Of a DNA stretch of 64,000 nucleotides, positions 49,852-50,955 are shown piece by piece. The stretch is from Kalmusia sp. IMI 367209 (taxonomy: Eukaryota; Ascomycota; Dothideomycetes; Pleosporales; Didymosphaeriaceae): contig JAPEUQ010000003.1 of assembly GCA_027946365.1 (NCBI GenBank), forward strand, positions 248,001 through 312,000, written 5' to 3'. Under the pieces are notes generated by a model. The model did no database searches and was not told the DNA's origin. It was given only the letters and a program-made list of their open reading frames with translations. The translations under genes and the position numbers were made by a program. Within the stretch, counting starts at the first letter, position 1; each line of letters starts with the position of its first letter.

Positions 49852-50551
49852 GGAGTTGAAGGACGGGAGCTTCGTGGGGATTGGAGTACCCCGCATTGGA
49901 TATATGTTTCGGATAAGGGAGGGGTGTACAATAGGTACGGCATCTTGGGCGGATTTTCACATGACACACGGGCATGGCGAGCATTTGGATGTATTCACCG
50001 GGAGCGGATGGACCTCCATTGATCCATCCATTCATTCAGAGGCTGTTGATAACCAGACATTAACATCATAGATGGGCATGATTATAAATAGGAATTATGT
50101 TATATACATATTCAGTTTCAGAGCATGTGTTAAGTAAGACAAAGGTCAGCCTCCGGTCGTTCCCTGCGAGTATGTGAATAGTAGTGCGTTATCAACATGA
50201 CCAATGAGGATCATACTGTCGAGATAAGGCTTCCCAGGACATCACACTAGACGCAAGACTCGAAGCATACGAAATAACAATCGCTTCTCGAAAAAGGAAT
50301 CGGCGTTGATGAATCGTGCTTAGCTTCAGCAAAAATGGAGGAGGGCTGGCTAGACCAACCCTAGCTCACGCGCAAAACTCCGACTCGACCACTAGCACCC
50401 CCTGACAGGACCTACCCCACCCACAATGCCCCACTTTGTTCCGTCATTCATCTTGTCGTCCTGACACATGTTACTGACCTCATTTGACTATCGCGCTGGT
50501 ATTTTGCTGTGTATATATATTTTGTTATTGGACTGATGTTCATCAAACACA
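49852..50551. other. Intergenic, no gene seen
   Basis: About 700 bp between the RING gene and the tRNA gene. Nothing else is supported. Confidence 0.5.
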
Positions 50552-50696
50552 TCTTCCTTGGTCTAGTGGTCATGATTTCCGCTTGTCAAGCGTTGAACGA
50601 CGTTAACAAGCGCGGGAGACCGGGGTACGTCAACTTCCATTCTAAACATAGATATCATTCCTAACTTGTAAAAAGGTTCGATTCCCCGAGGGAGAG
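50552..50696 (+). tRNA. tRNA-Asp(GTC) with two insertions
   Basis: The acceptor stem pairs TCTTCCT (50552-50558) with AGGGAGA (50689-50695), with G50696 as discriminator. The A box TGGTCTAGTGG is at 50559-50569. The anticodon stem is TCCGC/GCGGG and the anticodon GTC is at 50585-50587. Segment 50589-50610 (22 nt) is a canonical intron one base after the anticodon; it contains GAC at 50599-50601, able to pair with the anticodon. A second segment, 50625-50675 (51 nt), interrupts the T arm, starts GTACGT and ends AAAAAG. Removing both leaves a 72-nt cloverleaf with T arm CGGGG/TTCGATT/CCCCG. The B box GGTTCGATTCC stays intact at 50675-50685 because the insert ends in G. A T6 run at 50704-50709 is a Pol III terminator. 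Confidence 0.85.
50625..50675 (+). other. Spliceosomal-looking 51-nt insert in the tRNA T arm
   Basis: Begins GTACGT, contains CCTAAC at 50660-50665 (branch-site-like), and ends AAAAAG. Size and ends are like the protein-gene introns in this window. Its removal gives exactly the uninterrupted sequence found at 50925-50955. No bulge-helix-bulge structure is evident at its ends. Confidence 0.7.
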
Positions 50697-50703
50697 CAAA
50701 CAC

Positions 50704-50709
50704 TTTTTT
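50704..50709 (+). terminator. Pol III T6 terminator of tRNA-Asp
   Basis: Six consecutive T residues start eight bases after the discriminator base. Confidence 0.75.
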
Positions 50710-50884
50710 GGCATCTGTTCGATTCGTCACTGCGAAGAGTCGGTTTTTTTGTTTTGCTTATTTACGCTAGAGCGTTTAAGGTCTTCGCTTTTGTGCCCGA
50801 GCGCTACTAGGCCGTGCACCTACTAAAAGTTCCCTAGTCGCTGCCTCCAGCGGTAGGTTCCTTCTATATCTACTCTCCCCAACA

Positions 50885-50909
50885 CTGCAAGGCCCCGCAG
50901 GCCTTGCAG
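50885..50909. repeat. Perfect 10-bp hairpin followed by T5
   Basis: CTGCAAGGCC, a five-base loop, then GGCCTTGCAG, followed shortly by TTTTT at 50915-50919. It stands just upstream of the duplicated tRNA 3' half. Possibly the 3' end of a small Pol III transcript, or chance. Confidence 0.5.
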
Positions 50910-50924
50910 TATCTGTTTTTATAC

Positions 50925-50955
50925 GGAGACCGGGGTTCGATTCCCCGAGGGAGAG
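50925..50955 (+). repeat. Duplicate of the tRNA-Asp 3' half, without the insert
   Basis: 31 bases identical to the spliced 3' part of the tRNA above (variable loop, T arm and acceptor strand), with an intact B box and no insert. No A box or 5' half precedes it. A T5 run follows at 50968-50972. Confidence 0.85.

Follow-up and report, generated by a model that had tools for sequence, protein, structure and literature searches.

Several nuclear tRNA genes of the fungus Kalmusia sp. IMI 367209 (Didymosphaeriaceae, Pleosporales) very probably contain U2-type spliceosomal introns. We describe at least 12 inserts in 11 nuclear tRNA genes, all of them apparently Pol III genes, which the spliceosome would remove from the transcript; splicing itself, the machine, and the order of the steps are what we infer from the signals set out below. 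The split genes are real, recurrent, and most likely functional. In standard teaching, nuclear tRNA introns belong to a protein endonuclease that works apart from the spliceosome.

The tRNA-Asp gene in the window and its copies

One of the split genes, a tRNA-Asp(GTC) gene, lies in the window, the whole stretch of 64,000 nucleotides of DNA that was analyzed. An earlier note on this DNA had proposed that the gene, placed in a fungal nuclear genome, carries a canonical 22-nt intron beside the anticodon and a second, 51-nt intron with spliceosomal-looking ends in its T arm. Sequence and parsing bear this out to the base for both introns (50589-50610 and 50625-50675), and the GTACGT, CCTAAC, and AG named for the second are all present; the fungal nuclear host is supported as well. 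The parts of the gene and its surroundings are as follows.

50512-50520, + strand: TATA-like stretch upstream of the gene, of a kind found at 36/62 unsplit tRNA genes of the same genome
50541-50546, + strand: CATCAA motif upstream of the gene, of the CATCR kind found at 30/62 unsplit tRNA genes
50552-50696, + strand: whole tRNA-Asp(GTC) gene, read from the sequence and by pattern parsing
50552-50588, + strand: exon 1, with the acceptor 5' strand, the D arm, and the anticodon GTC, up to position 37
Within exon 1, in the D arm, + strand: A box, TGGTCTAGTGG
50589-50610, + strand: anticodon intron, 22 nt, at the canonical site 37/38; tRNA splicing endonuclease type by position
50611-50624, + strand: exon 2, positions 38-52, with the anticodon 3' strand, the variable loop, and the T-stem start CGGG
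50625-50675, + strand: T-stem insert of putative spliceosome type, 51 nt, between positions 52 and 53; GTACGT...CCTAACTTGTAAAAAG
50625-50630, + strand: predicted 5' splice site of the insert, GTACGT, the same hexamer as in beta-tubulin intron 2 of the Kalmusia genome
50661-50665, + strand: branch-site motif CTAAC of the insert; its branch A, 50664, lies 11 nt from the insert end
50674-50675, + strand: predicted 3' splice site AG of the insert (AAAAAG)
50675-50685, + strand: B box, GGTTCGATTCC, including the last G of the insert
50676-50696, + strand: exon 3, positions 53-73
50704-50709, + strand: T6 run resembling a Pol III terminator, with no T4 run inside the gene
50925-50955, + strand: tRNA-Asp fragment, positions 42-73 without the T-stem insert, 31/31 identical to the joined sequence; not a gene

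Removal of both introns leaves 72 nt, which ARAGORN calls as tRNA-Asp(gtc), in keeping with the canonical 72-nt tRNA that had been predicted. The B box is intact, as had also been claimed: its first base is the last G of the insert, so it is contiguous in the DNA. ARAGORN makes no call on the unspliced gene, and scans of the whole window with ARAGORN and with Rfam at the gathering threshold missed it. At a loose threshold the Rfam tRNA model gave 25 bits (cut-off, 29) for two of the four genomic tRNA-Asp copies, those on contigs C26 and C8, and the window copy was absent from its matches even then. Directly past the T run, at 50717-50725, lies a B-box-like GTTCGATTC, in a stretch kept downstream of all four tRNA-Asp genes (13/61 columns vary). 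Just upstream of the tRNA-Asp fragment, at 50884-50910, is an inverted repeat whose 11-nt arms match perfectly. The SGT1 frame in the window yielded no intron and matches relatives along its entire length.

The earlier note had advised a search of the genome for other Asp-GTC genes. With the gene as query, four loci matched, on C23 (the window's contig), C1, C26, and C8, and every one carries the insert. A 36-nt 5' probe allowing up to 3 mismatches returned the same four loci, and a 22-nt 3' probe returned these and two fragments; the joined 72-nt tRNA matched the four split genes piecewise and two 3' fragments of 31 nt, and nothing else. None of these searches of the assembly (gene query, 5' and 3' probes, joined tRNA) turned up a tRNA-Asp gene without interruption. 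An exact-pattern scan for the split tRNA-Asp in viral and non-fungal genome contig collections gave no match.

Across the four copies, 0/72 exon columns vary, exon 1 thus being the same in 4/4. The T-stem insert varies at 12/51 columns (one copy is 50 nt long), the anticodon intron, present in all four, at 11/22, and the flanks (60 nt each) at 13/61 columns downstream and 63/76 upstream. Within the insert, GTACGT and TCCTAACTTGT are fixed and the variation falls in the middle. Identical exons combined with drifted inserts are what a functioning tRNA would show if the insert is cut out of it. The suggestion of a dead gene, raised in the earlier note, finds no support here, since all four Asp genes found are split, their exons do not vary, and no intact alternative was found.

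The second fragment, also a 31-nt tRNA-Asp 3' end without the insert, lies at C26:487047-487077. Both fragments cross the predicted splice junction, and the junction that they carry is the predicted spliced one; each is either the remnant of an earlier gene that lacked the insert or a copy of the spliced product. A few hundred bases upstream of each, on the same strand, is a split tRNA-Asp gene. They also have about 23 nt upstream in common, and the C26 fragment is followed by a T run.

Split genes in other tRNA families

Genome-wide, the Rfam tRNA model gave 61 matches, mitochondrial ones included, with the 63 best of 1,270 candidates scored; three long matches were the two tRNA-His genes and the split tRNA-Ser. 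A B-box survey covered 99 regions, 46 picked by motif from 100 listed of 347 and 53 from 100 listed of 108, places already covered being left out. ARAGORN and acceptor pairing served to find tRNAs in these regions, splice motifs being kept out of the search, and ARAGORN made 7 calls in 40 regions and 18 in 59. The split His, Ser, Ala, Leu, and Pro genes were found either through the covariance model or by a B box plus acceptor pairing. The total is 12 inserts at 7 sites in 11 genes of 6 tRNA families (Asp, His, Ser, Ala, Leu, and Pro), or at least 11/73 of the nuclear tRNA genes predicted. The 73 comprise these 11 and 62 unsplit genes predicted by ARAGORN, among which a few are doubtful. Because only the best candidates were scored, the number of tRNA genes and that of split ones are both minimum figures.

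tRNA-Asp(GTC), four genes, on C23, C1, C26, and C8: insert of 50-51 nt at 52/53, plus a 37/38 intron
tRNA-His(GTG), two genes, at C27:659754 and C1:1650189: inserts of 69 and 71 nt at 53/54
tRNA-Ser(AGA), one gene, at C11:717554: 54-nt insert at 47/48
tRNA-Ala(CGC), two genes, on C1 and C3: inserts of 50 and 53 nt at 25/26, plus a 37/38 intron
tRNA-Leu(CAG), one gene, in the region C25:2183286-2183666: two inserts, at 19/20 and 30/31, 49 and 51 nt
tRNA-Pro(CGG), one gene, on C25: 54-nt insert at 34/35, inside the anticodon, plus a 37/38 intron

The inserts range from 49 to 71 nt, and none of the sites (19/20, 25/26, 30/31, 34/35, 47/48, 52/53, and 53/54, in our numbering) is 37/38. The tRNA-Leu gene has no 37/38 intron in our parse, and one of its two inserts comes directly after the A box. 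A query with the tRNA-His gene matched the two split His genes and nothing else; no uninterrupted tRNA-His gene was detected in the genome searches or in the partial tRNA survey. In the two His genes 0/71 exon columns vary versus 14/71 insert columns, and in the two Ala genes 0/72 versus 34/57.

Uninterrupted copies exist for tRNA-Ser(AGA), on C12 and C3, and for tRNA-Pro(CGG), on C2. Compared with these paralogs, the insert is a clean addition that ends at GT-AG, so in both families the insert ends are fixed; the ends in His, Ala, and Leu, for which there is no insert-free paralog, rest on tRNA structure and the GT-AG rule. Of the 4/81 bases at which the split Ser gene and the C12 paralog differ, two face each other in acceptor pair 7-66, which is G-C in the C12 copy and A-T in the split copy, so that pairing is kept. 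At C29:314465-314506 the 5' 42 nt of tRNA-Ser(AGA) are followed by unrelated DNA, with an AGAAA that looks by eye like a direct repeat further on; this piece is probably a broken copy.

Run on the 11 unspliced split genes, ARAGORN reported nothing in 7 and fitted 4 (the two Ala genes, Leu, and Pro) as tRNAs with a single intron, assigning a wrong isotype to 3; our own parse of the Ala, Leu, and Pro genes used tRNA structure, paralogs, and the GT-AG rule. With the inserts removed, it gives the expected tRNA in 10/11 genes. For the joined Pro gene it leaves the anticodon undetermined, as it does for the unsplit paralog, the parsed end of the anticodon intron being off by one; the joined Pro sequence equals that of the uninterrupted paralog. 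Phe and elongator Met are absent from the ARAGORN calls in this partial survey, and tRNA genes holding at least two inserts may therefore have escaped detection.

Some further loci were recorded along the way. A tRNA-like locus on the minus strand (C23:1747410-1747790) has A and B boxes and a middle formed by a long, hairpin-like inverted repeat. In a tRNA-Trp gene, also on the minus strand (C23:3758026-3758406), the anticodon intron measures about 80 nt and lacks spliceosomal ends. Four U6 matches (104, 98, 99, and 73 nt) lie on C25, C23, and C28 and are intron-free as judged by match length.

The signals expected of Pol III genes are retained. None of the 11 split genes has its A or B box interrupted in the DNA; the tRNA-His B box reads AGTTCGATTCC. 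No T4 run lies inside any of the 11, and a run of T4 or longer begins within 25 nt downstream of each; the lack of T4 in the inserts is not significant, as 17% of shuffles also give zero. A TATA-like stretch or a CATCR motif is found upstream of 7/11 split and 46/62 unsplit genes, versus 14% of random window stretches, and both motifs are missing at 4/11 split and 16/62 unsplit genes.

Splice signals and the machine of removal

Each of the 12 inserts can be read in 2-4 registers that yield the same mature tRNA, and in every case exactly one of these is GT-AG. All 12 also contain CTRAY, its branch A followed by 9-12 nt. We applied a strict test, namely a GTR start, CTRAY with 7-20 nt after the branch A, and an AG end. 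The test was passed by 11/12 inserts, the exception being the second Leu insert, which starts GTTAGT; by 15/200,000 random 52-mers of insert composition; and by 0/52 anticodon-loop introns in any of nine registers (44 placed by ARAGORN and 8 parsed). A small sample of seven pre-mRNA introns of the fungus, six from beta-tubulin and one from pyruvate decarboxylase, passed in full; their positions had been set from reading frame and homology. Six of the seven have 9-11 nt after the branch A and are 46-61 nt long; the other has 18 nt and is 114 nt long. The 5' hexamers of the tRNA inserts are GTACGT, GTAGGT, GTAAGT, GTAAGA, and GTTAGT, and those of the pre-mRNA introns are GTACGT, GTAAGT, GTGAGT, GTGCGT, GTGATT, GTATAT, and GTGCGC, with no GTT start among the seven. 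Given this shared layout, the tRNA inserts resemble the ordinary short introns of the fungus.

Canonical 37/38 introns, the substrates of the Sen/TSEN endonuclease, are found in many Kalmusia tRNA genes, those for Asp, Ala, and Pro among them. They differ from the inserts in position, and none of the 52 has the spliceosomal signal set. Group I and group II introns are far longer than these inserts; such an identity was dropped, the inserts being far too short. An assembly artifact was rejected, as split genes occur at 11 separate loci.

A different account, which we regard as improbable, has the inserts as ectopic tRNA introns that the tRNA splicing endonuclease would cut, through a bulge-helix-bulge (BHB) motif or a ruler, as in the red alga Cyanidioschyzon merolae and algal nucleomorphs. 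According to PMC9602550 and PMC4090602, those genomes, like Kalmusia, have introns outside 37/38, including at 53/54, and several per tRNA gene. C. merolae has D-arm and T-arm introns with BHB motifs (PMC9602550), one of them at 53/54, the very site of the His insert, and PMC4090602 states that eukaryotic endonucleases can be flexible. The Kalmusia inserts differ in kind, however: the C. merolae introns described carry BHB motifs, and the ectopic tRNA introns of the Guillardia theta nucleomorph measure 3-24 nt (PMC9602550, PMC4090602), whereas here, in a fungus, inserts of 49-71 nt carry GT, CTRAY, and AG. A strict BHB is absent at 12/12 inserts, which weighs little, because 0/8 anticodon introns serving as a positive control pass the same test, and the endonuclease keeps some standing for that reason. 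What it leaves unexplained is the presence of GT, CTRAY, and AG at every insert when 0/52 anticodon-loop introns have the signal set, and the constancy of GTACGT and TCCTAACTTGT in the Asp copies while the middle of the insert varies.

If the spliceosome is the machine, as we hold, maturation might proceed as follows. Transcription by Pol III would be directed by the A and B boxes, cover the gene in full, and stop at the downstream T run, as the intact boxes and the T runs imply. The spliceosome would then recognize GTACGT, CTAAC, and AG in the pre-tRNA, and the insert would leave as a lariat; in tRNA-Asp, G52 would be joined to G53 and the T arm restored. Where a 37/38 intron is present, it would be taken out by the endonuclease. 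In Pro, whose insert splits the anticodon beside the 37/38 intron, this enzyme probably acts second.

Origin of the inserts and their meaning

The inserts could have come from introner-like elements, a mobile intron family jumping into tRNA genes, an origin compatible with spliceosomal removal and one that the earlier note had put forward. We think it quite unlikely. The sizes of 49-71 nt and the complete splice signals would suit such elements, and the presence and absence of inserts between the Ser and Pro paralogs suggests recent gain. Against this, genome-wide copy searches, which covered the Asp, Ser, and His genes, matched tRNA loci or their fragments only; very common words were skipped, so these searches are no proof. 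Inserts of different tRNA families are also unlike one another: when inserts trimmed of their splice signals were paired across families, or with pre-mRNA introns, none of the best 14 pairs listed beat all 100 of its shuffles. Within Asp and within His the insert is common to the copies, which fits gene duplication. The two Ala-CGC inserts, at the same site between identical exons, have no detectable likeness (6/100 shuffles score as well) and are either old or two separate gains at one site. Independent gains appear more likely than a single introner family.

That the interrupted genes are pseudogenes, each with a neutral insertion, is highly unlikely: eukaryotic D- and T-arm insertions have been taken as pseudogenes, mostly being in one of many synonymous copies (PMC4090602), uninterrupted Ser-AGA and Pro-CGG copies exist in this genome, and two 3' fragments of tRNA-Asp are close to split genes, but every Asp (4/4) and His (2/2) gene found is split and no alternative to them was detected, exons are identical where inserts and flanks have diverged, an acceptor pair is compensated in the split Ser gene, and removal of the insert restores a tRNA in every case.

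Spliceosomal introns in the tRNA genes would have close relatives elsewhere. Ascomycete nuclear rRNA genes carry mRNA-type (spliceosome-type) introns. As in Kalmusia, these are spliceosome-type introns in a noncoding RNA gene, the host being rRNA and not tRNA. In fungi, U6 and U3 RNA genes carry spliceosomal introns, and PMC5832005 named U3 and U6, in 2017, as the only small structured RNAs so far known to be often interrupted by introns; a title cited there speaks of multiple U6 intron gains. The fungal U6 and U3 genes are like the Kalmusia tRNA genes in being small structured RNA genes with mRNA-type introns, U6 itself being a Pol III transcript. Unlike them, the Kalmusia hosts are tRNAs, of several families and with several sites, and the Asp, Ala, and Pro transcripts hold a second intron that is, by position, of the endonuclease type. 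Among the matches listed in our literature search, which covered subscription papers and bioRxiv thinly, there was no report of spliceosomal introns in nuclear tRNA genes, and prior work may exist.

We consider it likely that the spliceosome is obligatory for tRNA maturation in this lineage, with no mature tRNA-Asp or tRNA-His formed without it, that some pre-tRNAs require the spliceosome as well as the endonuclease, and that Pol III genes are still gaining introns; for the gain we point to the Ser-AGA and Pro-CGG copies with and without the insert. If this is true, the endonuclease and the spliceosome meet on one transcript, and translation depends directly on pre-mRNA splicing. Essential genes could then escape tRNA-finding software, as ARAGORN, which saw nothing in 7/11 and misread 3, illustrates. 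Where the exact mature product is known, intron origin would become testable through paralogs of the same genome that have or lack an insert. The split genes suggest that in this fungus the machine that splices mRNA is also needed to finish Asp, His, and other tRNAs.
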